NCBI GenBank assembly: GCA_023412495.1
Contig: JAEYNP010000105.1
Location: 1-64,000 of the forward strand
Length of the DNA: 64,000 nucleotides
DNA from: Pseudomonadota bacterium
GTDB taxonomy: Bacteria > Desulfobacterota > Desulfobulbia > Desulfobulbales > Desulfocapsaceae
Direction of reading: 5' to 3'
Shown here in pieces: positions 25,807 to 39,502 of the stretch. The translations under genes and the position numbers were made by a program. The notes below the pieces were generated by a model. The model searched no databases and was not told the DNA's origin. It worked only from the letters and a program-made list of their open reading frames with translations. The stretch's first letter is position 1. The number at the start of each line of letters is the position of its first letter.

Positions 25807-28800
25807 TTACACTTGTTCCTGGCGCGATCCGGAGAAATATTCCGCAATCTCTGTCTCGGACAATCCGGCTATCTCATCGAGCATTTCCTCAAGGTTCCCC
25901 TCTGCGCATGACTGCACCACGGCGGCCTCCACGGCGGACGACAGCTCGCCGACCGTTCGTTTGTCAAAGAGCGTCCGCAGTGGAATATCGACGCCGAATC
26001 GCCTCTTGATGCGTGCGGCCACCCTGGTGGCGGCGAGGGAGTGGCCACCGATCTCGAAGAAGTCGGCATTGATATCGGCACATTCCCGCCGTAGCACCTC
26101 GCGCCAGATCGCAGCAATCTCCTGTTCAGTGGCCGTTCGCGGCGCGACGGGCTCCACCGTAGTGTGAGCTGCGGCAGCGACCATTCGGCTGAGTTTTGCG
26201 TAGTCGACCTTGCCGTTGATCGTCAGGGGCAGGGCCTCGACCCTGAGGAAGGAACTTGGAATCATGTAGGGCGGCAGATACCGGCCGAGATGGGTGCGCA
26301 GCTCCTGCTCGTCGATGGCGCTCTCCGCGGTATAGAAGGCGGTGAGGAATAGATCGGCCACTTCGTCCAGCCGGCAGGGATAGTCCAGTTCCCGGAGGAT
26401 GGTGCGCACCCGGCTCAAGTCGGGTGAAACTGCAAGCTCGGCCAGAAAGTCCTCTCGGGTCCGGTGACCGATCCGCACCTCCCAGCTTCCAGGCAGGGCG
26501 TAATTATGAAAGCCCTGCTCGCGCCGATGGACGAAAATGCCGGCATCGTTGACGGCGCAGTTGGTCGAGCAGCCGATCTCGGTCGGGCTGATCCAGGCCA
26601 TGTGCTGTTTGAGGTAGGCAAAGATGTCGCTCCGGGTGACATCGCAGTAGCGGTAGAAATCGATGAATTGTATCTCCTCGAAGACCTTGTCGGTTGCAAA
26701 CAGCTCGCCAGCCATGGTTCGCCGCACGGCGTCGTCCATGCGATGATAGGCCTTGCGGGCCTCGAGTACGGCCGCATCGATCCCTTGGTCGTCGAACACG
26801 CCACCGCCGAAGAGTTCGCCCAGGCGGGTCTCGAACAGCTGGCCGCGGGAAAGCCCGGTGACGATATAAGGAATCCGTTTGTCCAGCGCAGTCTGGATGG
26901 CGGCGGTATAGATGCTCTTGAAGCAGCCGTTGCAGACATTGCTGTACGTGGCCAGACTGTCGCCGAGGATGCTTTTCATCGCCGGCGGGGTGTGGATCAG
27001 GCTGTCGACCCCCAGGTGCGCCACCGCGGCCCGGATATTCCGGCCGGCGGTCTCGTACAGATAGCCGTTGTCCAGGGTAAAGGCCAGTATCCGGTAGCCC
27101 ATTTCGACCAGCCGGCAGAGCATGTAGGTACTGTCTTTGCCGCCGCTGTAGAGCACGAGGCAGTCGTATTCACCGCCTCCCTGTTTCATGTCGGCGCGCA
27201 GGTCGTCGAGGGTTCGAAAATAGCCCTCGGCGCGGTCCCTGTAGGCGGCAAAATCGCGGCACAGAGTGCAGATTCCCGCCCCGTCGAAGCCGATGCCGGG
27301 ATAATTGGACGGCATGCCGCAGGCGTTGCAGTGGTGCACCGCGGCATCCCCGGCGGATGCGGTCCCCGCCTCACGGCAGATCACGGCGCTGTTGCGGATC
27401 CGCGGATGTTCGAGCAGTACCGATTCGATCTCGCCCGGTTCGACCCGGTAGCCGCGGATCTTGATCTGGCGGTCGACCCGGCCCAGATAGGTAATCTTGC
27501 CGTCTTCTTCCCATTTTGCCCGGTCGCCGGTGCGGTAGAGCCGGGTTTCGGGCAAGGTGGGACCGGCTATGAACCGCTCCGCTGTCAGCGCCTCCCTGCC
27601 GATATACTCTCGCGCGACACCGGCTCCGCCGACACAGAGCTCGCCGACTATGCCCATCGGTGCAAGATTCCGGTCTTTGTCGAGAATGCAGATGAAACTG
27701 TTGTCGATGGGTCCGCCGATGGAGACAGAGCCGGCGGTCTCGACAGCCGGGTCGAACCGGTGAATCATGCAGCCCACGGTGGCCTCGGTCGGCCCGTACT
27801 CGTTGTAGATGGTTACCCGGCCGTGCGTGGCATCGCAGGCGGCGCGGGCCAGCTCCACCTTCAGGTCCTCCCCGCCCAGGATCAGGCTATGGATGCGTTT
27901 CGGGGCTAAGCCCGCTTCCACGACCAGGGCGAGATGGGCGGGGGTCAGCTTGACCACATCGACCAGGTCGTCGGCCATCACCCGCAGGATGACCGGGGTC
28001 GGGTCGGCGGGATCGTCGTCATAGGTCCGGACCGTCCCGCCGCCGATCAGCGGCACAAAGAGCGAGGTTACGGTCAGGTCGAAGGCCAGGGAGGAAAACA
28101 ACGGAAAATCGACGGCACGGCCGTTGCCGTACTGCCGGAGGGCCCAGGTGATGTAATTGACCACGCTCCGATGCTCGACCAGAACGCCCTTGGGCTCGCC
28201 GGTTGAGCCGGAGGTGTAGATAATATAAGCCCCTCCGGACGGATTGAAGCTGCAGGCGATCTCTCCGCCGCCAGGAACATTGCCTGTCCCTAAAGCATCC
28301 GACCGGACAATGGCCGGCGGCTCGGTTTCGGCGGGCAGGCAGGCCATGGCCTCCCGGACATAGCTTTCGCGGCCGCCATCGACGATAAGCAAGGACATCC
28401 TGCAGTCCCCGGCGACGAAGGCGGTTCGCTGCGGCGGCCATGCCGGATCCATCGGTACATAGACCCCGCCGGCCTTCATGATCCCGAGCAGGACGGCCAG
28501 CATTGCGGCCGACCGCCCCATGCAGACCCCGACCCGGCCTTGATCTTGCAGCCCTTGCGCCGCGAGGTAGCGGGCTATCCGGTTTGAATCCGATTCCAAT
28601 TCCGCGTAGGTCATGGTCATTCCGTCTGTTTCGACCACCGCCGGACTGTCCGGGGTTTTTCGCGCCTGGGCGGAGAAAAGCTGATGGACGCACTGGTGCG
28701 GGATCGGCACTGCAAGACCCTCGCCGATTGCGGTGAGACGGGACTTCTCCTCGGCGGTCAACAGCGATACGGTCTTGGCTGGCGCGTCCAAATCGGTAAC

Positions 28801-30135
28801 CATTGCGACAAGCACGGTTTCGAGGTGACGCCACAGCCTCTCGACCGTCGCTCGGTCGAAGATCTCCTTTTTATAGACGATATCGCACTGGAGAGAGCCG
28901 TTTGCTTCCCACAGGTACACCTCGACATCAAAGCGTACCGTGCGGGTCGCTATCGGATATTCAGTGACGGTCAGTCCCTGCAGGGACAGCTCACCGATCG
29001 GCGCATTCTGCATAATGACCATGACCTGAACCAGCGGCATGGTCTCGCTGCTCCGCTCCGGCTGGGCGATTTCGACAATCTTTTCGAAAGGGATCTCCTG
29101 GTGACCATAGGCCTCGAGGGTGAGGTTGCGAACCCGGCCGATAGTTTCGCGGAGCGTCGGCGAACCCGACAGATCGACGCGCAACGGCAAGGTGTTGACG
29201 AAAAAGCCGATAAGGGGTTCCAACTCGGCCCGGTGCCGGTTGGCGATAAGGGAACCGAGAACGATATCGTCGCTGCCGCCATACCGGCCGAAGATTATCG
29301 AACAGGCAGCCAGCAGCGTCATGTATGGACTGGCCTGCAGGCGGCCGCTCAAATCGAGGACCGAGCCCGTCAGTTCGGGTGACAGCGCGGCGTGCACCAC
29401 CTCGGCCGCATGGGAGGTTTCGGCGTTTCGGTGGTTGCTCGTGGGCAACAGTGGCAGGGGCGATACCCCGTCGAGCTTTCGTCGCCAGTAGTCGATTGAG
29501 GCATCGAACTGGCCGGCCGCCATCTCCTGCCGTTGCCGCCTTGCAAATTCGGCGTACTGCAGGGAAAGCGGCGGCAGCGGCGAGCCCTCCCCCTGCATGA
29601 AGGCGCCATAGAGGGCGGCGATCTCCCCGACCAGCACCCCCATCGACCAGCCATCGGAGACGATGTGGTGCATGGTCAGCAAACAGAGAGCTTCGCTCTC
29701 ACCCAGGCCCAGGAGGAGGATTCGGGCCAGCGGTCCGGTGGCGAGATCGAATCGTCGGGCCGCCTCCTCCAGCATCCGGCGGCCGGCCCGCAACTCTCGC
29801 TCGCCGTCCGGAAGGGAGCGCAGGTCGACGACCGTAAAGGGAATCTTCATGGAGGCGTAAATGAGCTGTTCGGGGCCATCCCCGTCATCCCGAAAGCAGG
29901 TGCGAAGGACCGCGTGCCGCTCGACCACCTCGCTGATGCACCGCTCGAGAATCGAGATGCTGAAATTGCCCTTTAACCGAAGACCGACCGGAATGTTGTA
30001 CAATACGGCATCCGGCTCGAGCTGTTCGAGAAACCACAACCGCTCTTGGGCAAACGACAACGGCGCGGTGGCTACGACCGGGGCCGTATTTTCCGGCCCC
30101 TTATCGAAACGATCCATTTCGGGCAAAAGATTCAT
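25807..30135 (-). CDS. NRPS module C-A-PCP with a PP-loop amidotransferase-like domain inside the A domain
   Basis: 1442 residues, last gene of the assembly line. C domain about 20-440 (MHHIVSDGWS), of the LCL type by its start PLSFAQERLWFLEQL. The A domain runs from about 455 (a3 TSGSTGEPKG, a5 NEYGPTEATVG, a7 YRTGDRA, a8 IKIRGYRVEPGEIE) to 1330 (a9 LPPYMIP, a10 LTINGKVDY). Between a8 and a9, about 922-1268, sits a ~350-residue foreign domain: CNACGMP, CTLC, and the PP-loop YSGGKDSTYM, followed by NVCNGCFKS. PCP Ser lies near 1365 (IGGHSLAAT). Pocket residues read by hand, DLTKIGEVGK, are one conservative change from the usual Asn code DLTKLGEVGK. No thioesterase or other release domain follows the PCP, only a ~60-residue tail. 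Confidence 0.92.
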   Translation of the reverse strand: MNLLPEMDRFDKGPENTAPVVATAPLSFAQERLWFLEQLEPDAVLYNIPVGLRLKGNFSISILERCISEVVERHAVLRTCFRDDGDGPEQLIYASMKIPFTVVDLRSLPDGERELRAGRRMLEEAARRFDLATGPLARILLLGLGESEALCLLTMHHIVSDGWSMGVLVGEIAALYGAFMQGEGSPLPPLSLQYAEFARRQRQEMAAGQFDASIDYWRRKLDGVSPLPLLPTSNHRNAETSHAAEVVHAALSPELTGSVLDLSGRLQASPYMTLLAACSIIFGRYGGSDDIVLGSLIANRHRAELEPLIGFFVNTLPLRVDLSGSPTLRETIGRVRNLTLEAYGHQEIPFEKIVEIAQPERSSETMPLVQVMVIMQNAPIGELSLQGLTVTEYPIATRTVRFDVEVYLWEANGSLQCDIVYKKEIFDRATVERLWRHLETVLVAMVTDLDAPAKTVSLLTAEEKSRLTAIGEGLAVPIPHQCVHQLFSAQARKTPDSPAVVETDGMTMTYAELESDSNRIARYLAAQGLQDQGRVGVCMGRSAAMLAVLLGIMKAGGVYVPMDPAWPPQRTAFVAGDCRMSLLIVDGGRESYVREAMACLPAETEPPAIVRSDALGTGNVPGGGEIACSFNPSGGAYIIYTSGSTGEPKGVLVEHRSVVNYITWALRQYGNGRAVDFPLFSSLAFDLTVTSLFVPLIGGGTVRTYDDDPADPTPVILRVMADDLVDVVKLTPAHLALVVEAGLAPKRIHSLILGGEDLKVELARAACDATHGRVTIYNEYGPTEATVGCMIHRFDPAVETAGSVSIGGPIDNSFICILDKDRNLAPMGIVGELCVGGAGVAREYIGREALTAERFIAGPTLPETRLYRTGDRAKWEEDGKITYLGRVDRQIKIRGYRVEPGEIESVLLEHPRIRNSAVICREAGTASAGDAAVHHCNACGMPSNYPGIGFDGAGICTLCRDFAAYRDRAEGYFRTLDDLRADMKQGGGEYDCLVLYSGGKDSTYMLCRLVEMGYRILAFTLDNGYLYETAGRNIRAAVAHLGVDSLIHTPPAMKSILGDSLATYSNVCNGCFKSIYTAAIQTALDKRIPYIVTGLSRGQLFETRLGELFGGGVFDDQGIDAAVLEARKAYHRMDDAVRRTMAGELFATDKVFEEIQFIDFYRYCDVTRSDIFAYLKQHMAWISPTEIGCSTNCAVNDAGIFVHRREQGFHNYALPGSWEVRIGHRTREDFLAELAVSPDLSRVRTILRELDYPCRLDEVADLFLTAFYTAESAIDEQELRTHLGRYLPPYMIPSSFLRVEALPLTINGKVDYAKLSRMVAAAAHTTVEPVAPRTATEQEIAAIWREVLRRECADINADFFEIGGHSLAATRVAARIKRRFGVDIPLRTLFDKRTVGELSSAVEAAVVQSCAEGNLEEMLDEIAGLSETEIAEYFSGSRQEQV
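26331..27369 (-). other. Embedded PP-loop ATPase domain (WbpG-like) in the last A domain
   Basis: The insert starts after the a8 motif and ends before a9. It has an N-terminal pair of zinc-type cysteine motifs (CNACG, CTLC), the PP-loop SGGKDS, the ATP-binding follow-up FTLDNGY, a second CxxC (CNGC), TGLSRGQLFETRL, and WISPTEIGCSTNC. This order is that of N-acetyl sugar amidotransferases such as WbpG, members of the adenine nucleotide alpha-hydrolase group. That group activates a carbonyl as an adenylate for attack by ammonia or sulfur. Borders are approximate. Confidence 0.85.
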
Positions 30136-30140
30136 TAAAT

Positions 30141-33100
30141 CTACTCCTTGTCGGCAAGAGAGGCGGGCCGCGCCGCGAGTGTTTCGATATATCGCGCAAG
30201 GTCGGCCAAGACCGGCGTATCAAAGATGACCCGCAGCGACAGTTCCGCCGCCAGGTCCTGGCGAATCCGCGAGGTCATCCGGGTGGCCGACAGGGAATGG
30301 CCGCCAAGGGCGAAAAAATTGTCGTGCCGGCCGACGGCATCGGCGCCGATGACATCACGCCAGATCGCCGCAAGCTGTGCCTCGACCGGGCTCAGCGGTT
30401 CGCTGTCGGCAGCTGCTGCATCCGACTGCACCGGCGGCATTGCTTCCAGCAACCCTTCACGATCGATCTTGCCGCTGACCGTCAACGGCAACCGCTCCAC
30501 CCGGACAAAACGCGCCGGAATCATGTATTCCGGCAGAGTCTGGCGTAAAAAGCTTCGCAGCTGGTCGGCCGGAACCCCTTCGTTCCCTTCCGCCACCAGG
30601 AAGGCGACCAGCATCGCTCCGCCGGCTTCTTGCCCGACGACGACCGCGGAGTCCCGCACGAGAGGGTGGTCGCGGAGGGCTCTTTCGATTTCCGCCGGCT
30701 CGATGCGAAAGCCCCTGAGCTTGATCTGAGTATCGATACGGCCAACAAAAAACAGACCCTGATCGAGCGACACGCGGACGCGGTCGCCGGTGCGGTACAG
30801 CCGTTCCCCCGGCCGAACGGGATGGAGAGCAAAGCGTTCTCCGGTCAAGTCCTCGCGGCCGACATAGCCCTGCGCCACCCCGGCTCCGCCGATGTGCAGC
30901 TCGCCCACGGCGCCGATTGCCGCCCGCCGGCCATAGCGGTCAAGGATGAACAGCTCGGTGTTGTCGATGGGCAGACCGATCGGGATCGGCCGGCCGTCGC
31001 CAAGGCCTGTGACTTCCATTACCGTCGCCATGACGGTGGTTTCCGTCGGCCCGTAGTTGTTGAACACCCGGAAGCTGCCATCGCCGGCGGAGCGCAGGAC
31101 ATCGCCTCCGGTCAGCAGCCGGAAATCGGGCGGCAGCCGGCCGTCATGAATCCGGCAGATCTCCTCGCAGAGCACTGGGGGGACAAAACTCAGGGTTATG
31201 GCATGCTCACGGTAGAAGGCGATCAGACCCTCGCCGTCAAGGACATTGTCCCGCAGGCAGTGGAGGCTGCCGCCGGCAAGCAGCACCGGGATCAGCTCGA
31301 GGATGGAGGCGTCGAAGGCCGGCGAGGCCAAAAGGGTGCTGTGGGTCGATGGACCGAGGTCATAATAGCGGCCAAACCAGGAAGCGAAATTGACCACCGA
31401 GGCGTGCGAAATGGCGACCCCTTTGGGTGTGCCGGTCGAGCCCGAGGTAAAGATGATATAGGCGGCGCTCCGCGGGCTGCCTGCAGCCGACTCGCATGCC
31501 GGGCCATCGATTCGTGTCACGTCGGTGACCATGATATCGCCACCCCAGGCCGGGGAGTCGCGGAGATGCGGCAGGGTCAGGACGAAGCGGCAGCGGCAAT
31601 CCTTCAGGATGGTAGCGGCGCGTGGCGCAGGACACTGGGGATCAAGCGGAACGTAGGTGCCCCCTGCCTTGAGGATCCCGAACAGGGCCGCGGCCAGCCA
31701 GCGGCTGCGGTCGACCATCACCGCCACACACTCTCCCTGGCTGAAAGCCGGCTGGCGGTGGAGATACCCGGCAACCCTTTCGGCCAGGGCACCAAGCTCC
31801 TGATAGCTCACACTGCCTTCATGGTCGGTCACCGCCGTGTCGAGCGGCGATTGCTTTACCCTGCGGTCGAACTGGGCGCCAAGGGTGATGCCGTCATCGT
31901 AGGCTCTGGTCGTGGCGTTGAGGGAGTCGAGCATCGAATACTCCTCCGCCGAAAGCGGGTCGGCCGCATCGATCTGCATGTCCGGGTTTCGGGCGACTGC
32001 ACCGAGCATTGTCCGGACATGGCCGGCAATGCGGTTCGCCGCGCCAAAGTCAAAGGCTGCGTGATCAAAGTGCAGCTCGATTTCGAAGGGATCACCGGGC
32101 ACCACGACCAGGGCCAGATCGTAGCCGACCTGCTCGTGGCTTGCGGTTGGCCGGATATCCACGCCTTGGATCGATCCCCGGAAGGCCCGGGGAAAATTCT
32201 CGACGGCGACAAGATGGTTGATCAGCTTTCGTTTGGCGGCGGTCACGTTCTGGATCTCAGCCAGGTCGCAGAAGTGGTGGTCCGAGGCGGCAAGCGCCTG
32301 CTGCTGCACGGCCTGGGCGATCTGCCGGAGAGTTCGTATTCCTGGCCCGAGCCGTATCCGCACAGGAATGGTATTGATGCACAGGCCGACCATGCGATCC
32401 GAACCGGCCAGGGATTCGGGACGGCCGGAAACGACCGAGCCGAAAACGACATCGTCGGAATCGTTGTACCAGCCAAGGAGGAGTCCCCACAGGGTGTGGA
32501 CGATCGTACTGACCGAGACCTGCCAGCGGGCCGCAACCGACTGGAGTAGGGGACCTACGCCCGGCTCACAGGTAAGGCGCACCCTGCCACCATCGCCGGG
32601 CCTTTCCGGCCGCCGCGTGTTCTGCCCCGGCAGGATCGTTTCACCCCGATAACCCTCGAGTTCCCGGCGCCAGAACGACAGCGACTCCTGCCGGTCCCGG
32701 CTCTCCAGCCAGGTGATATAGCGGCTGAACGGCGCCACGCCGGGCAATTGTGCCGATGCCGCCCCCCGGATCGAGCGGTAGAGTTCCATCAGTTCGGCGT
32801 ACAGAATCGCGACGCTCCAGCCGTCGACGACGATATGGTGCATGGACCAGAGCAGCTCAAACGATGACTCGCCGAGTTGGCAGAGGGTAATGCGAATCGG
32901 CAGTTCGCCCGTGCAGTCGAGCCCCTTTTGCAGGTCGAGCCGGCGCACCTCGGCCACCGCGGAGTTTTGTTCGTCCTGCTTGATGCCGCGAAAGTCGTGC
33001 TGATGCCAGGGCGTCGCCCTCGGTTTCACCACGATCTGCAGGGACCGTTTGCTTTTCTCCGCTACGAATATGGTCCGCAACGCCGCATGGCGGGCCACCA

Positions 33101-33269
33101 GACCATCGAAGGCCGCGCGAAGGCCGGCGATGTCCAGTGGGCCGGATATCTGATACGACCGCTGCTCGAAATAGGCCCGGGACCGCGGATGCAGGCGGCA
33201 ATGGAGCAGCATGCTCTCCTGCATCGGTGAGAGCGGATAAATGTCGGCGATGTCGCTCTTGGAAAACAT
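30141..33269 (-). CDS. NRPS module C-A-PCP
   Basis: 1042 residues from ATG 33269, which overlaps the upstream stop (TGATG); the frame is open for 29 further codons inside the previous gene. C domain about 1-430, with the D-accepting type start DIYPLSPMQESMLL and an intact MHHIVVDGWS. A domain about 450-940 (a3 TSGSTGTPKG, a5 NNYGPTETTV, a7 YRTGDRV, a10 LTVSGKIDREG). PCP with ALGGHSLSAT, Ser near 990. The C-domain type fits the epimerisation domain that ends the upstream gene. Pocket residues read by hand, DALSLGNVMK, match no code I know and hint at a small or aliphatic side chain. Confidence 0.92.
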   Translation of the reverse strand: MFSKSDIADIYPLSPMQESMLLHCRLHPRSRAYFEQRSYQISGPLDIAGLRAAFDGLVARHAALRTIFVAEKSKRSLQIVVKPRATPWHQHDFRGIKQDEQNSAVAEVRRLDLQKGLDCTGELPIRITLCQLGESSFELLWSMHHIVVDGWSVAILYAELMELYRSIRGAASAQLPGVAPFSRYITWLESRDRQESLSFWRRELEGYRGETILPGQNTRRPERPGDGGRVRLTCEPGVGPLLQSVAARWQVSVSTIVHTLWGLLLGWYNDSDDVVFGSVVSGRPESLAGSDRMVGLCINTIPVRIRLGPGIRTLRQIAQAVQQQALAASDHHFCDLAEIQNVTAAKRKLINHLVAVENFPRAFRGSIQGVDIRPTASHEQVGYDLALVVVPGDPFEIELHFDHAAFDFGAANRIAGHVRTMLGAVARNPDMQIDAADPLSAEEYSMLDSLNATTRAYDDGITLGAQFDRRVKQSPLDTAVTDHEGSVSYQELGALAERVAGYLHRQPAFSQGECVAVMVDRSRWLAAALFGILKAGGTYVPLDPQCPAPRAATILKDCRCRFVLTLPHLRDSPAWGGDIMVTDVTRIDGPACESAAGSPRSAAYIIFTSGSTGTPKGVAISHASVVNFASWFGRYYDLGPSTHSTLLASPAFDASILELIPVLLAGGSLHCLRDNVLDGEGLIAFYREHAITLSFVPPVLCEEICRIHDGRLPPDFRLLTGGDVLRSAGDGSFRVFNNYGPTETTVMATVMEVTGLGDGRPIPIGLPIDNTELFILDRYGRRAAIGAVGELHIGGAGVAQGYVGREDLTGERFALHPVRPGERLYRTGDRVRVSLDQGLFFVGRIDTQIKLRGFRIEPAEIERALRDHPLVRDSAVVVGQEAGGAMLVAFLVAEGNEGVPADQLRSFLRQTLPEYMIPARFVRVERLPLTVSGKIDREGLLEAMPPVQSDAAAADSEPLSPVEAQLAAIWRDVIGADAVGRHDNFFALGGHSLSATRMTSRIRQDLAAELSLRVIFDTPVLADLARYIETLAARPASLADKE

Positions 33270-36200
33270 CAGAGAATGCCCTCCAGCTCGTCGAGGGTGA
33301 GGTCGGAGTAGGTGAGGTCGGAAGGCGTCGGCTCCGTCAGCCGGCCGTCGCAGCAATGCTCGATAATCGCAAGGAGTTCCACGCGCAAGGCTTCGGCCAG
33401 AGACTGGGCCGCCTCCGCCTCGCAGGCCCGGCGCGAATAGGTCAGTGAGACGCTCAACATGTCGCCCGCGACTATGCCGCTTATATCCAGGAGATGCGGC
33501 CGCTCCGCCAGGGGATTCACTGCCGAAGCCTGATATGCACCCAGCTCCACTTTGAACAGGTCGCCCTGCCCAGCCTCCAGTCGGCCGAGATAGTTGAAGC
33601 CGATGGCCGGTGAGCAGCTCAGATCGTAACTGCGGGTCAGCTCCTTTGGTGCCATATATCGCAGAATCCCATAGCCGACCCCGCGGTCCGGCACCGCCCG
33701 CAACGACTCCTTGACCGCCTTGATCTGGTAGGCCAGATCGCGCTCTGCGGGGATGGCGAGGGCGAACGGGTAGGTAACCGTCAGCCAGCCGCAGGTCCGG
33801 CCGAGATCGAGGCCGAAGGTCTCTTCCCGGCCATGGCTCTCAAGGGTGATCAGGGTGCCCCCGATGCCGTGCTCGGCAAGGAGCGCCCGGCCAAGGGCGC
33901 AGAGCAATAGATCCTCGACGGTGGTGGAATAGCGCTGGGTTGCGACGAGGCGAAGTCGCTCGGTGTCCTGCCGGTCCAGGTCGAAGCGAACTACAGCGCT
34001 CTCCCCGTAGCAATCTTTTTCTTTCCCTTTCCCCGCCAGTGCAGCCGCGAGCGGATCATCGCTTTGGGCGACGGCCTGCCAGTACGGCAGCTGGCTCACG
34101 AACCGCGAATCGCCGGCATGAGAAGCCAGGGTATTGGACCACTGGATGAACGATACGGGCGGAGGCACCAGTGCCGGCGTAATGCCGGCCCGAGCCTTGC
34201 CGTAACACTCGATCAGGTCGCCCAGGATGATTCGCCAGGAAATCCCGTCCACCGCCAGGTGATGGATGACGAGAAGGATCCGGTCACCGTCGCTCGTGCG
34301 GATACAGGCCGCGGCCGCCAGTTCGCCGGTTTCGATATTGAGAGAACCATGGAGACGTTCGGCAACCTCTTCAATGCCGGAGGGGTTTTCGTACAATTCG
34401 ATCCGCCGCCCCCGGTTCCGGCACGCTTCCTGCCGCCAGGTCTCAGACTTCCGGCGAAAACAGCTGTTCAGCGAATCATGGGTGGCAAGGACGCAATCCC
34501 AGGCGGCCTGGAGGGCGGCAAGATCGATGCGCTCTTTGCCGGCGAGTGCCATGGCATGGTTGAAGCGGTTGGGTTCTACCTTGTGGTTCTCCATGAAAGC
34601 GGTCTGGATCGGGATGAGCGGCGCCTGGTCCGTCGCCGCAGCGATCTTCTCCGAAGCCTTGACGGGGACGATGTGCGGGGCCAGCTGGGCGATGGTCGGA
34701 TAGCGGAAAAGATCGCGGATGGTAACCGACCAGCCGACTCGGGCTAAACGGGAGACGACCTGGATGGCCTTGATCGAATCGCCGCCGAGGGCAAAATAAT
34801 TGTCGTGAATGCTCAGCGCTTGCTCGCCCAGCACGATACGCCAGGCCTGCTCCAGCACCCTTTCCTCCTCGGATCGCGGCGTCTCGACCGGTGCGGCCCG
34901 GTGCAACTGGTTCGACCCCGACATCGCCCGCAGCTGCAGCCGATCGAGCTTTCCCGAGGTACCCAGCGGCAGTTCCTCGACCGTGGCGAAAACGGCAGGG
35001 ATCATATAAGCCGGCAGAGAAGAACGTAAATAATCCTGCAGGGCCTCGACCGTCACCTCCGACCGGGTGACGATAAAGGCCGCCAGGGTGTCGGCTTCGC
35101 CCTCCGAACCGAGCACGGTGACCGCGGCGCCGGCGACCGCCGGATGGCGGCCTAGCCATTGTTCGATCTCTTCCGGTTCGATGCGGAAGCCGCGAACCTT
35201 GAGCTGGTTGTCGATCCGGCCGCCGAACTCGATCATGCCATCGGCGGTCCAGCGAACCCGGTCGCCGGTGCGGTACAGCCGGCCGGCATCGGCGAAGGGG
35301 TCTGCCACAAAGCTCCGGCCGGTTTCGTTCGGCCTGTTCACATACTCCCGCGCCACGCCCTCGCCGCCGATGTAGAGTTCGCCGAAGACACCGATCGGCA
35401 CCGGCCGCATCGCCCGGTCGAGGATGCGGAAGTATGCGTTGTCGATGGCTTTGCCCAGGGGTGGATGGAGCCACTGCCGGAAGGAATCGATACCAAACAG
35501 CCAGGAAGCCGCGTCGACGCAGCACTCGGTCGGGCCGTACATGTTCCGGATGACGATGTTTCCATGGCCGGGGTGGGCGTAGAAACGCTCGACCATCGAT
35601 CGAGGGAATTTCTCCGCCCCGACCAGCAGCTGGTCGACGGTCATCGGCTCGCCGCCCTGATCGATAGCGTCGAGCATCATCGCCAGCCGGCTGGGGGTGA
35701 CGTTGACCATCTGGACACGCTGTTCTTTCAGGTAGGCAAGGAGCAGCGAGGGTGCGGCGGCGATATCGCCGGGAACGAGATAGAGGGTGTAGCCGGACGA
35801 GAAGGCCCCGAAGATCTGCTGGGCCGAGACATCGAAGATCAAAGGGGCGACAGTCGCCTCGCGGAGAGGTGCCGGATAGCGGCCGTAGACCGTGCGCTTG
35901 AGCCAGCCGACCAGATTGCTCATCGAGTGGTGCTCGACCATGACTCCCTTGGGTTTGCCGGTCGAACCGGAGGTATGGATAATATAAATACCATCGGCGG
36001 GCCCGGCCTTGCGCGGCGGATTGGCGGCCGCAATGTCCATCGTGCCCGCCATGGCTGCCGACAGCCGCTCCACAGTCAGGAATCGGCAGGACGAATCACG
36101 TATCTTTTTACGCTGTTCCGCAGGGATAAAGGCCAGGCCGGCGATATTTTTGAAGAGGTCGGCACCCGCACAATCCGAGCCCCCGGCAAGCATCTTCTCC

Positions 36201-39200
36201 ACCACTTCGCAGAAGGTGACCTCTCCCTCGCCGATCACGGCCGCGTCGACATTGACATCGCTCAGCAATAGCGCGGTACTGGACGTCGCATAGGGGCCGC
36301 CGGCAATGATCGGCCCGTTAAAACCCCACTGGCGGAGCAGCTCGACCCCCTTATGGAAAAAGTTGCGGTAGAAGGTAAGCGTCCGCACGCCGATGCAATC
36401 CGGCCGGAACTCGGCGACGAGCCGGCGCAGGCCGTCGAAATCGGCGAAGTCTATCCGCGCCTTGACAATCCGGCCGACCACTTTCCCGCCAAAACGCCGG
36501 TTCAGCACGGTGAGCAGGGATGCCAGGCCGAGCGGCGGTTCCACTACATCGTAGAGCAGGGTCTTCTCCTCGGCGAAGTATTGGCTGAGGTCGAGCAGGA
36601 GAATCCGCAGCCTGCCCGCATCCTTTACCGGCTCTGCGGGTCCTGTGGGGGCGAAAACCCGGGCGATGCGGCGGTTCAGGTCCGGCGGTCGAATCTCTTC
36701 TTCTTGAATGCAGGCGGCGTCGCCGAGATCGGCCCGGCTCATCCCCGCCACCTCCAGGATGTCGTCCAGCGTCTTGATCTCGGCCGGCAGGTAGCTGTCG
36801 TACTTCAATACCAGCGATCTCTCGTCCATCACCCGCATCTGCCAGGGCAGGACCTGCCGCAGCCGGTCCCTGTCGAGAAAATATTCGTTGAGAAAGGCCA
36901 TCTGGTAGCGGGTCGATACCTCCCTGGCAAAAGGCAGGGTGGTGGGCAGTTCGTTATAGCCCAACTCCATCGATTCGCGGATCGCCTGTTCGCTGATGCC
37001 ATGGCTGCTGGCGATTCCGGCCATCTCGGTATCAGGGAAGATTCTGAGAATAAATATATAAGGGAAGTGAAGCCAGCGAATACCCTTGATAAACTCAAGC
37101 GTCGTCTGCGCCTCCTCGGGGGTCTCGGTGGGAAAGCCGTGCATGGTGAACAGCTCGAGGATGACCTGGGGGTATTTGGCCGCGATATAGGCGAGGTTGT
37201 CCTGCAGCCGGTCGATATGCAAATGCTTGCCGATCAGTTTTTGCAGGCGCGGGCTGGCGGTCTCCAGGGCGAAGGCCATCTGGATCGTGCCCGCCTCGAC
37301 CATCAGATCGATCTCGTCATGGGAAAGGATGTCGCCGCGAAGGCCGTTCGAGAAAAAGAACTGGCACTGCAGGTTGTGGCCGATCACCTTTTCGAAGAAG
37401 GAGCGGCTGGCGGCCCGATCCAGGTTGAAGATATCGTCAATGAAGACGAAGCGCTTAAAGCCGCAGTCGTGAAGCTTTTCGATTTCCGCAAACAGATGCT
37501 CCGGCGAGCGGCGGATGTGGGTCTTGGGCCAGATCTTGTGGCAGTAGGCGCATTTATACGGACATCCCCTGGTGGCCTGGATCGCCGCGGAAAAGCGGGC
37601 GGTCGACTGACCGAGGAACTGGTTGTAGGCTTCATAATCGATCAACGACCGGTTGATGATCGGCAGGGTGTCGAGGTCGGTAATCGGGGGGCGCGGCGGA
37701 GTGAAACGGGGGATGGTTTCGACGAAGGGTTCCGAGAGCCGGTTCTTGAATGGCAGTTCCTCGACAATCTCCGTCTCGAGGATGACGTACCTGGCCCGGC
37801 ACTCTCGCACCATGTCGGCCAGCCGCGGTTCGGGGATTTCGGGGTCCAGGGGTAAATAGGTCGCTCCCGCCTTGAGTATGCCGAGAATCGCCACGATATA
37901 TTCGGCCGAGCGCGGCAGCAGGATGCCCATGACATCGCCCGGTGCCACTTGATACTCATCGATCAGGACGTGGGCCAGGCGGTTGGCGCGCCGGTTGAGT
38001 TCGGCGTAGCTGAGACGCGCCTCCCCGCAGACCAGGGCGACGGCCTCCGGCGTACGGGCGGCCTGGTCCTCGAACAGCTCCACCACGGTTCGGTCGGCCA
38101 AGTCTGCCAAGTCGGCCTCCGGCGCATTGAATTCGAACAGGAGGCGGTCCAGGTCGCTGCGGTCGAGCATGCCGACACTGTCGACGACGGCGGCAAAGCT
38201 TGCCGCGCAGGCGGCGGCGCAGCGAGTGAAGTGGCGCATCAGGGCCTCGATCCGCGCATCCTCGTACTGATCCCTGCCGTAGAAGAAGCTGCAGCGCAGC
38301 CCCTGGGGGGTGGGCAGGAACTGTAGGTCCAACGGGTAGTTGGTCCGTTCATGGACCGCGGTGCTCTCCAGGACAAAGCCCGGCGCCCCCGAGCGGGCCG
38401 CGGCCTCCACCCCGGCATCGACAGGATAGCTCTCAACGGCCATGATCGTGCTGAACAGGCCGGCGGGCAAGGCGCTTTCGCGCTGCACGGCGGCGAGGGG
38501 GTAATGGTGATGGGGCGCGGCGAGCAACGACTCCTCCTGGATCTTTTCGGCCAGAGATCGCCAGCTCATGCCGCGATCCAGGCGAACCCGCACCGCCACG
38601 GTGTTGATGAGATTGCCCACCATGCTCTCGATGCCCTCTACTTCAGCCGGCCGGCCCGAAACGACCAGGCCGAAGACGACATCGTCGCGGTCGTTGTACC
38701 GGCTTAAAACGACCGCCCAGATCGACTGGAGGACGACGGCGACGGTGACCCCGCACTCGGCGGCGCGAGCCTGCAGCGCGCCGTAAAGATCCGGCGTAAG
38801 AAGGGTGGAGACCGAACCCTGCTCGCCTTTGAAGCTGGAGAGATCCAGGCCGGAGGGAGCAATGTCGGCGATCCGGGAGTAACCCCGCAGCCGCTCGTTC
38901 CAGAAGGCCCGCGGTATCTCCCGCGACCGGCGCTCAAGCCAGGCGATGTAGCCCTTGACCGGCACCGGCCGGGCAAGCTCGGGCCGGAGGTCCTCCTTCA
39001 ACCTGGAGTAGATATGGAGAAACTCACCGAGGAGGATGCCCACCGACCAGCCATCGAGCAGCAGATGGTGATGGGTCCAGACAACGTCGTAGAGATCGTC
39101 TGCCCGCCGGATGACCAAAAGCCGCATGAGCAGGTCGCGGCTGAGATTGAAGGGGGTCGTGCGCTGCAACTCCATGATCTCGCGGCGAACCGGCTCGCGC

Positions 39201-39502
39201 CTCTCCTCCGCGAGAGCCCGGAGGTCCTGAAAGTCCACCCGCAGCCTGGCATCTTTCACCACCACCTGCAGCGGTCGGTCGGTGCCCTCATGGGCAAATA
39301 CGGTCCGCAGGCCGTCATGCCGCGCAAGCAGAATGTTCCAACTCTTCTCCAGCAGTCCGCAATCCAGAGTCCCGCGGACGGTCCAGCAGACCTGCTGCAT
39401 GTACGATGGCCTGCCCTGGTCGGCCAGGGCATGATGCAACATGCCTTCCTGCATCGGCGAGAGGGGGTAGACTCCTTTGATGTTTTCTTTCGTCGTTCGC
39501 AT
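33269..39502 (-). CDS. NRPS module C-A-PCP-E with radical SAM and B12-binding domains inside the A domain
   Basis: 2077 residues. C domain about 9-440 (D-accepting start GVYPLSPMQEGML; HHLLLDGWS). The A domain begins at about 463 (LSYAELNRRANRL, a2 ILKAGATYLPLDP), is broken at about 570, and resumes at about 1165 with a3 HTSGSTGKPKG, a5 NMYGPTECCVD, a7 YRTGDRV and a10 GTSGKLDR. PCP Ser near 1572 (LGGDSIKAI, the form usual before E domains). E domain about 1620-2060 (HHLAVDGISWRIIL, FNYLGR). The ~600-residue insert holds a radical SAM domain and a cobalamin-binding-like domain. Pocket residues read DVQNLGMVDK, related to the Gln-like codes of two sister modules but not identical. The E domain should deliver a D-residue. 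It starts one base after the upstream stop. Confidence 0.92.
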   Translation of the reverse strand: MRTTKENIKGVYPLSPMQEGMLHHALADQGRPSYMQQVCWTVRGTLDCGLLEKSWNILLARHDGLRTVFAHEGTDRPLQVVVKDARLRVDFQDLRALAEERREPVRREIMELQRTTPFNLSRDLLMRLLVIRRADDLYDVVWTHHHLLLDGWSVGILLGEFLHIYSRLKEDLRPELARPVPVKGYIAWLERRSREIPRAFWNERLRGYSRIADIAPSGLDLSSFKGEQGSVSTLLTPDLYGALQARAAECGVTVAVVLQSIWAVVLSRYNDRDDVVFGLVVSGRPAEVEGIESMVGNLINTVAVRVRLDRGMSWRSLAEKIQEESLLAAPHHHYPLAAVQRESALPAGLFSTIMAVESYPVDAGVEAAARSGAPGFVLESTAVHERTNYPLDLQFLPTPQGLRCSFFYGRDQYEDARIEALMRHFTRCAAACAASFAAVVDSVGMLDRSDLDRLLFEFNAPEADLADLADRTVVELFEDQAARTPEAVALVCGEARLSYAELNRRANRLAHVLIDEYQVAPGDVMGILLPRSAEYIVAILGILKAGATYLPLDPEIPEPRLADMVRECRARYVILETEIVEELPFKNRLSEPFVETIPRFTPPRPPITDLDTLPIINRSLIDYEAYNQFLGQSTARFSAAIQATRGCPYKCAYCHKIWPKTHIRRSPEHLFAEIEKLHDCGFKRFVFIDDIFNLDRAASRSFFEKVIGHNLQCQFFFSNGLRGDILSHDEIDLMVEAGTIQMAFALETASPRLQKLIGKHLHIDRLQDNLAYIAAKYPQVILELFTMHGFPTETPEEAQTTLEFIKGIRWLHFPYIFILRIFPDTEMAGIASSHGISEQAIRESMELGYNELPTTLPFAREVSTRYQMAFLNEYFLDRDRLRQVLPWQMRVMDERSLVLKYDSYLPAEIKTLDDILEVAGMSRADLGDAACIQEEEIRPPDLNRRIARVFAPTGPAEPVKDAGRLRILLLDLSQYFAEEKTLLYDVVEPPLGLASLLTVLNRRFGGKVVGRIVKARIDFADFDGLRRLVAEFRPDCIGVRTLTFYRNFFHKGVELLRQWGFNGPIIAGGPYATSSTALLLSDVNVDAAVIGEGEVTFCEVVEKMLAGGSDCAGADLFKNIAGLAFIPAEQRKKIRDSSCRFLTVERLSAAMAGTMDIAAANPPRKAGPADGIYIIHTSGSTGKPKGVMVEHHSMSNLVGWLKRTVYGRYPAPLREATVAPLIFDVSAQQIFGAFSSGYTLYLVPGDIAAAPSLLLAYLKEQRVQMVNVTPSRLAMMLDAIDQGGEPMTVDQLLVGAEKFPRSMVERFYAHPGHGNIVIRNMYGPTECCVDAASWLFGIDSFRQWLHPPLGKAIDNAYFRILDRAMRPVPIGVFGELYIGGEGVAREYVNRPNETGRSFVADPFADAGRLYRTGDRVRWTADGMIEFGGRIDNQLKVRGFRIEPEEIEQWLGRHPAVAGAAVTVLGSEGEADTLAAFIVTRSEVTVEALQDYLRSSLPAYMIPAVFATVEELPLGTSGKLDRLQLRAMSGSNQLHRAAPVETPRSEEERVLEQAWRIVLGEQALSIHDNYFALGGDSIKAIQVVSRLARVGWSVTIRDLFRYPTIAQLAPHIVPVKASEKIAAATDQAPLIPIQTAFMENHKVEPNRFNHAMALAGKERIDLAALQAAWDCVLATHDSLNSCFRRKSETWRQEACRNRGRRIELYENPSGIEEVAERLHGSLNIETGELAAAACIRTSDGDRILLVIHHLAVDGISWRIILGDLIECYGKARAGITPALVPPPVSFIQWSNTLASHAGDSRFVSQLPYWQAVAQSDDPLAAALAGKGKEKDCYGESAVVRFDLDRQDTERLRLVATQRYSTTVEDLLLCALGRALLAEHGIGGTLITLESHGREETFGLDLGRTCGWLTVTYPFALAIPAERDLAYQIKAVKESLRAVPDRGVGYGILRYMAPKELTRSYDLSCSPAIGFNYLGRLEAGQGDLFKVELGAYQASAVNPLAERPHLLDISGIVAGDMLSVSLTYSRRACEAEAAQSLAEALRVELLAIIEHCCDGRLTEPTPSDLTYSDLTLDELEGIL
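36010..37790 (-). other. Embedded radical SAM + cobalamin-binding insert in permuted order
   Basis: Residues ~572-1165 of the protein. First comes a linker typical of what normally follows a B12 domain (PITDLDTLPIINRSLIDY). Then comes the radical SAM core with the cluster motif RGCPYKCAYCHK, followed by FIDDIFN, ALETASPRLQKLIGKH and LFTMHGFPTETPEEA. Only after this comes a B12-binding-like domain (VVEPPLGLASLLTVLNRR, EFRPDCIGVRTLTFYR, IIAGGPYATSS, DAAVIGEGEVTF) with its own trailing linker (NIAGLAFIPAEQRKK). Class B enzymes have the opposite order. Borders are approximate. Confidence 0.85.

Follow-up and report, generated by a model that had tools for sequence, protein, structure and literature searches.

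A permuted radical SAM and B12-type unit built into the adenylation domain of a nonribosomal peptide synthetase

The window analysed here is a stretch of 64,000 nucleotides from a Pseudomonadota bacterium placed in the Desulfocapsaceae (assembly GCA_023412495.1, contig JAEYNP010000105.1, positions 1 to 64,000). It encodes a nonribosomal peptide synthetase (NRPS) module of condensation (C), adenylation (A), peptidyl carrier (PCP) and epimerization (E) domains, and the A domain of this module is interrupted by a foreign insert. Pfam profiles matched the protein in the order Condensation, AMP-binding (split into two stretches), Radical_SAM, B12-binding, AMP-binding_C and PP-binding, and its same-strand neighbours together make up a hybrid NRPS/polyketide synthase line. 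Our preferred reading, held with modest confidence, is that residues 587–1138 are a circularly permuted relative of class B (B12-type, that is cobalamin-type) radical S-adenosylmethionine (SAM) enzymes, set into the a2–a3 loop of a complete A domain and likely C-methylating the side chain of the loaded residue on the carrier.

In the window protein, motif a2 occupies residues 543–555 and motif a3 residues 1176–1182, and motifs a5, a7, a8 and a10 were found downstream of the insert, whose ends we placed by eye against an uninterrupted neighbouring A domain. The two motifs lie 608–648 residues apart (median 616) in 104 related interrupted A domains in which both were found, compared with a median of 69 residues in 20 uninterrupted ones, and the junctions between the A-domain parts and the insert hardly vary in length. 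In an AlphaFold model (predicted template modelling score, pTM, 0.88), the two parts of the A domain close into one fold around the insert, and the insert itself is predicted to form a radical SAM barrel plus a five-stranded Rossmann domain. The A domain of FscH aligned with the predicted model over 411 residues across both sides of the insert, with a root mean square deviation of 1.6. Motifs and model together support an insertion at a2–a3 of a complete A domain. A sequence-only reading of this DNA had described about 600 foreign residues between a2 and a3 at 36010..37790 and had proposed a check of whether the A fold closes; the insert measures ~550 residues at 36089–37744, close to that estimate, with A-domain motifs on both sides.

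Within the insert, the radical SAM domain comes first and the B12-type domain second, whereas ordinary class B enzymes begin with the B12 domain. The Radical_SAM profile (PF04055) matched residues 642–805 and the B12-binding profile (PF02310) residues 988–1100, the latter with 40.0 bits against a cut-off of 32.1. The insert opens with ITDLDTLP and closes with NIAGLAF. For comparison, a canonical set was drawn from open reading frames (ORFs) carrying both domains in at least 80 genome loci matched by the family profile; among the loci listed, 107 two-domain ORFs ran from B12 to radical SAM, and the four in reverse order were the close relatives in L001–L003. In the 107 canonical ORFs, the distance from the end of the B12 domain to the start of the radical SAM domain, projected from profiles, has a median of 10 residues (interquartile range 9–11), and many of the 25 canonical linkers examined read like GEGE...G(I/L)(A/S)...DLDxLP...CxxxCxxC. 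The spacing was taken from profiles because a strict pattern performed poorly, finding the first linker half in 30, the second in 35 and both in order in 12 of 70. With the DLDTLP half at its start and the NIAGLAF half at its end, the insert is a circular permutation whose cut fell in the short linker.

Two homologue searches returned 782 NRPS-sized relatives of the region and 2,833 relatives of the insert, and the best 120 of each (240 proteins) were studied. With the window protein included, all 247 adjacent pairs ran from radical SAM to B12, and the opposite order did not occur among the 240 homologues. Circular permutation is supported by sequence, by the 107 canonical relatives, by a tree (below) and by two confident models. 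The reversed order, the divided linker and the permutation had all been read from the letters of the DNA, and each holds; a second B12 domain upstream of the radical SAM core, which would have spoken against them, was not found in the window protein with Pfam.

Table 1 Features of the interrupted NRPS gene in the window
Feature	Coordinates	Strand	Basis
NRPS gene, 2,077 residues, C-A(interrupted)-PCP-E	33269..39502	-	Pfam, NCBIfam, motifs
Condensation domain, residues 9–449	38156..39478	-	Pfam PF00668
A-domain N-terminal part, ending just past motif a2, residues 466–586	37745..38107	-	Motifs; model and fold matches
Foreign insert, residues ~587–1138, ends set by eye	36089..37744	-	Pfam, motifs, a2–a3 spacing
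Second half of the class B linker (ITDLDTLP) and radical SAM domain, residues 605–945	36668..37690	-	PF04055; canonical linkers
CPYKCAYC, the CxxxCxxC iron-sulfur motif, residues 647–654	37541..37564	-	Sequence
B12-binding-type Rossmann domain, residues 962–1125	36128..36619	-	PF02310; five predicted strands; fold match to MtaC and methionine synthase
R1040, near-invariant Arg	36383..36385	-	Family versus canonical columns (mostly Ser/Thr in canonical relatives)
NIAGLAF, first half of the inter-domain linker, residues 1119–1125	36128..36148	-	Sequence; canonical linkers
A-domain C-terminal part with a3–a10, residues 1139–1530; code DVQNLGMVDK	34913..36088	-	Pfam, motifs
Peptidyl carrier domain (GGDSI), residues 1549–1610	34673..34858	-	Pfam PF00550
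Epimerization domain, residues 1640–2070	33293..34585	-	TIGR01720 (NCBIfam); E-domain motifs

Cobalamin radical SAM enzymes have been classed by domain order, class 1 carrying an N-terminal five-stranded and class 2 a C-terminal four-stranded cobalamin domain, and Mmp10 is called the only characterized enzyme of the C-terminal kind (PMC13331322). With class 1 (OxsB, TsrM and TokK, to which we add CysS by similarity), the insert shares homology of both domains, a predicted five-stranded Rossmann B12 domain and the CxxxCxxC motif, which sits in a partial TIM barrel according to PF04055 and fold matches of the model. It differs from class 1 in its order, reversed via the linker cut in every pair, in its changed presumed pocket residues and in being built into an NRPS. 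With class 2 (Mmp10, DUF512) it shares a C-terminal cobalamin domain (PMC13331322, PMC11659888), but that domain has the Pfam B12-binding fold with five predicted strands rather than the four-stranded type. The permuted family combines the fold of class 1 with the domain order of class 2.

The architecture recurs on other contigs, at 88, 75, 74 and 73% identity over the region (P0004, P0010–P0012), and sources named among the relatives include Aminicenantes, Omnitrophota, Scalindua, Nitrospinae, Desulfuromonadaceae, Acidobacteriota, Clostridium tagluense and Abyssisolibacter fermentans. In the 240 homologues, 127 units lie between the N- and C-terminal parts of an A domain, which answers the proposed search for other A domains with the same break, just as the 107 canonical-order relatives answer the proposed comparison with standalone class B enzymes. 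Some units keep only the N-terminal part, and 93 proteins of fewer than 640 residues consist of the unit alone. These 93 belong to 95 proteins with only the two enzyme domains, all of them permuted, and we therefore rejected, for the homologues studied, the idea that freestanding units represent the canonical enzyme from which the others descend. Several of the freestanding units probably lie on the same contig as an interrupted NRPS, as judged only from same-sized longest contigs (for example 106,162, 78,810 and 606,167 bases). In one class, 7 of 142 genomes held a match at E 1e-150. At E 1e-40, with partial matches counted, genome G003 held 34 matches and genome G001 held 19; plasmid sequences gave no match at this threshold. 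Twenty regions of G003, covering 27 of its 34 matches, contained 26 units, of which 21 interrupt A domains, three follow another A domain, one is broken by a frame change and one is without most of the A-domain C-terminal part.

Two further observations concern these settings. Under a loose pattern, 48 of the 93 freestanding units (P0121, for example) carry at their end a short acidic tail of the kind FNDDLENE, which also occurs in 6 of 126 NRPSs and could be a docking peptide. In addition, other radical SAM proteins of 566–608 residues adjoin NRPS genes in G003 (L103, L104, L105 and L109); they carry 230–275 residues before the core that look B12-like by eye and gave no B12 match of the family.

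In a tree of 111 rows, built by a quick method with a distant outgroup on long branches, the permuted units fall on one side of a branch with support 100, opposite 12 canonical rows. Inside the permuted branch the inserted, freestanding, half-A and after-A states are interspersed, which forces at least four changes each for the inserted and freestanding states and at least two each for the half-A and after-A states. When 167 A-domain cores were placed on a tree (FastTree), the labels interrupted and plain needed 25 changes, at least 16 of them across well-supported branches. The simplest reading is one permutation followed by many gains, losses or swaps of A cores. Through the permutation, the two ends of the enzyme meet at a single cut loop; the unit would therefore fit a surface loop of another domain, and this would be why it can move as a cassette.

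The host A domains are diverse. With specificity positions set from motif anchors, in what we take to be GrsA numbering, 125 interrupted A domains show 47 nine-letter strings, a few of them gapped or apparently misaligned. The commonest, DFWNIGMVH (37 of 125), is presumably a code for threonine, a beta-hydroxy substrate, and we take others to specify Ile, Pro, Leu, Gln, Glu, Asn, Val and Ser. The window A domain carries DVQNLGMVDK, presumably Gln/Glu-like, and its two uninterrupted neighbours carry DAQDIGIVDK, which we assume to be of the Gln type.

We infer that the loaded amino acid is C-methylated, by a route that would run as follows. The A domain would activate its residue (Gln/Glu-like by the code as we take it) and load it on the PCP, and the carrier arm would swing into the radical SAM unit. 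A first SAM would methylate cobalamin and a second would yield a 5'-deoxyadenosyl radical; the radical would abstract hydrogen from an unactivated side-chain carbon, for which the beta carbon is our guess, and methylcobalamin would donate a methyl group to it. The downstream E domain would then set C-alpha. The spread of host side chains would fit beta-carbon methylation, as it occurs in polytheonamide-type peptides. E domains, distinguished from C domains solely by which of two window segments scored higher, follow the carrier in 29 of 106 interrupted modules. Because an E domain needs the C-alpha hydrogen, C-alpha methylation is unlikely in these modules, and action on C-alpha was disfavoured there as a candidate. 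The literature describes the majority of cobalamin radical SAM enzymes as methylases (PMC12846815, PMC11659888).

Several observations weigh against this reading. The argument on C-alpha covers only part of the family, since 77 of the 106 modules are without a following E domain, and the substrate range of the hosts points to no single target carbon. For none of the family members was an activity, a cofactor or a product found. In 117 interrupted A domains, a3 was detected in 109, a7 in 102, a8 in 87 and a5 in 78, counts lowered by strict patterns and by cut-off proteins in the set. All 25 NCBIfam models examined for the insert scored far below their cut-offs; that of the AprD4 family (NF033070) gave 49.5 bits against 500, which leaves the insert outside that family. 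The closest solved fold is AprD4, a 1,2-diol dehydratase, and AprD4 is not known to use cobalamin. Moreover, three positions at strand ends that presumably face cobalamin are altered throughout the family: R1040 is kept in 245 of 246 units against Ser/Thr in 89 of 107 canonical ORFs, K1014 in 242 of 246 against Asp in 83 of 107, and D971 in 246 of 246, a position at which most canonical ORFs carry a gap or a different residue. Because of these family-wide changes the label B12 is not certain, and they can mean either an Arg-gated or a lost cobalamin.

The strongest rival takes up the second option: a Rossmann half that makes no use of cobalamin, with other radical SAM chemistry (dehydration, desaturation, epimerization or rearrangement) on the PCP-bound residue. 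We regard it as possible but distinctly less probable. The near-invariant R1040, K1014 and D971 and the AprD4-like fold would suit it, as would the beta-hydroxy substrate presumably read by the commonest host code; codes that we take to specify side chains without a hydroxyl are also common, and speak against it. So do the B12-binding match above cut-off in the window protein, the five strands predicted in the Rossmann half with fold matches to MtaC and methionine synthase, and the GG and GEGE motifs kept in the family. A search of the B12 half against the PDB with phmmer gave no match, and a viral fold library returned generic radical SAM matches. In known cobalamin enzymes the residue under cobalt comes from the loop after strand 3 and varies (Asn186 in OxsB, Arg69 in TsrM, Trp76 in TokK; PMC13331322), so a changed loop need not mean that cobalamin was lost. 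TokK has Ser in the column of R1040, in a weak profile alignment. With the presumed pocket positions changed, cobalamin use, like methylation, is an inference.

Where the unit acts is suggested by five modules (L101, L102 and L115 of G003; L082 and L089 of G001) in which the order is another A domain, the unit, then a carrier domain. In four of them the upstream A domain is full length, and in L082 the locus ends within it; the L089 case can be seen in full in L001. Next to the unit, four of the five modules retain remnants of a second A domain, weak ones in L082 and L089, and L101 is without a profile match. Since the unit stands beside another A domain in these modules, its substrate is most likely taken from the carrier, and by this arrangement an aminoacyl-PCP is favoured over an aminoacyl adenylate. 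CysS uses pantetheinylated substrates (PMC12846815). Action on the adenylate within the A domain, before loading, appears improbable: the physical union of unit and A domain, with junctions of near-constant length, would suit it, but the five modules, the 93 small proteins that carry the unit alone and the methyltransferase (M) domains inside A domains, which act after loading (PMC11355689), all argue otherwise. As a separate observation, all five upstream A domains carry the odd code CVQY(I/V)AHVV, and YGSSE stands at a5 in L101 and L115. The Cys of this code replaces an Asp that we take to bind the alpha-amino group.

If the unit is a methylase, it could instead resemble TsrM, with polar transfer from methylcobalamin and R1040 under cobalt. 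The weak TokK alignment places R1040 in the loop that follows strand 3, the site of Arg69 in TsrM (PMC13331322). TsrM, however, matched in the radical SAM half only, a search with the B12 half gave no alignment to Arg69, and polar transfer requires a carbon with nucleophilic character, absent from aliphatic side chains; we consider this marginally less credible still than action on the adenylate. An assembly artefact joining two loci, or a dead insertion, can be dismissed, as many of the best 120 NRPS-sized matches have the same architecture on different contigs, CxxxCxxC is present in 247 of 247 units and the window protein has its A-domain motifs.

PoyB and PoyC are reportedly radical C-methyltransferases, and enzymes of the DscE and EreB/PoyB/PoyC type resemble the unit in its proposed chemistry. 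They differ in being separate proteins that act on a finished or ribosomal peptide, and we liken them by chemistry, not by sequence or domain order; for DscE, in vitro work demonstrated such methylation on a nonribosomal peptide (PMC12858407). A structural parallel is the A domain interrupted by a methyltransferase, which likewise places a catalytic, SAM-using tailoring domain inside a complete A domain of the same module (PMC11355689). TioN and MarQ share the a2–a3 site with the insert, and TioS and KtzH are interrupted at a8–a9 (PMC11355689), so the sequence-only reading erred in citing KtzH for a2–a3. The inserts named in that review are M, Ox and KR domains, and the word 'radical' does not occur in the available part of it; an insert of ~550 residues in the form of a radical SAM/B12-type enzyme is of a different kind. 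We found no description of a permuted radical SAM/B12 unit in A domains in one open-licence library, subscription journals being largely outside this search. The earlier reader, too, knew of no such enzyme in that place; the architecture itself is widespread and the freestanding versions studied are equally permuted. We rate the finding as two known kinds joined in one new variant.

Two other genes of the window deserve mention. The gene at 30141–33356 (-) has a mechanically assigned TTG start that overlaps the 3' end of the interrupted NRPS gene; its true start is probably later. The next-but-one NRPS gene, at 25807–30135 (-), contains a different interrupted A domain, with an insert at residues ~925–1255, after a8. 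This insert is a PP-loop ATPase with a Cys-rich finger and SGGKDS, and it resembles the N-acetyl sugar amidotransferase WbuX (TIGR03573, 96 bits, below the cut-off of 203). It has 2,021 homologues at E 1e-3, of which the best 120 carry AMP-binding. The PP-loop A domain accompanies the permuted radical SAM module in five further related clusters (P0242, P0244, P0245, P0246 and P0340), as judged from same-sized longest contigs.

A radical enzyme within an A domain would extend in-line tailoring to unactivated carbons. The family also offers a third layout of cobalamin-type radical SAM enzymes, with systematic pocket changes, and a natural protein-design experiment in which circular permutation is combined with domain insertion and the state changes at least 16 times on the A-core tree. 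Structure prediction for many NRPS modules becomes testable, and methylation on the assembly line would turn the unit into a portable means of bringing radical chemistry to peptide synthesis. On a broader proposal we are evenly divided: the unit may be a widespread, undescribed NRPS tailoring domain, in which a single permutation made a B12 radical SAM cassette that plugs into A domains of almost any specificity, can fall out as a separate domain or free enzyme, and C-methylates unactivated side-chain carbons of PCP-bound residues in line, with an Arg-gated cobalamin site of its own. If this is true, uncultured bacteria would have in it a natural means of placing tert-leucine, beta-methyl and beta-hydroxyvaline residues in their nonribosomal peptides.

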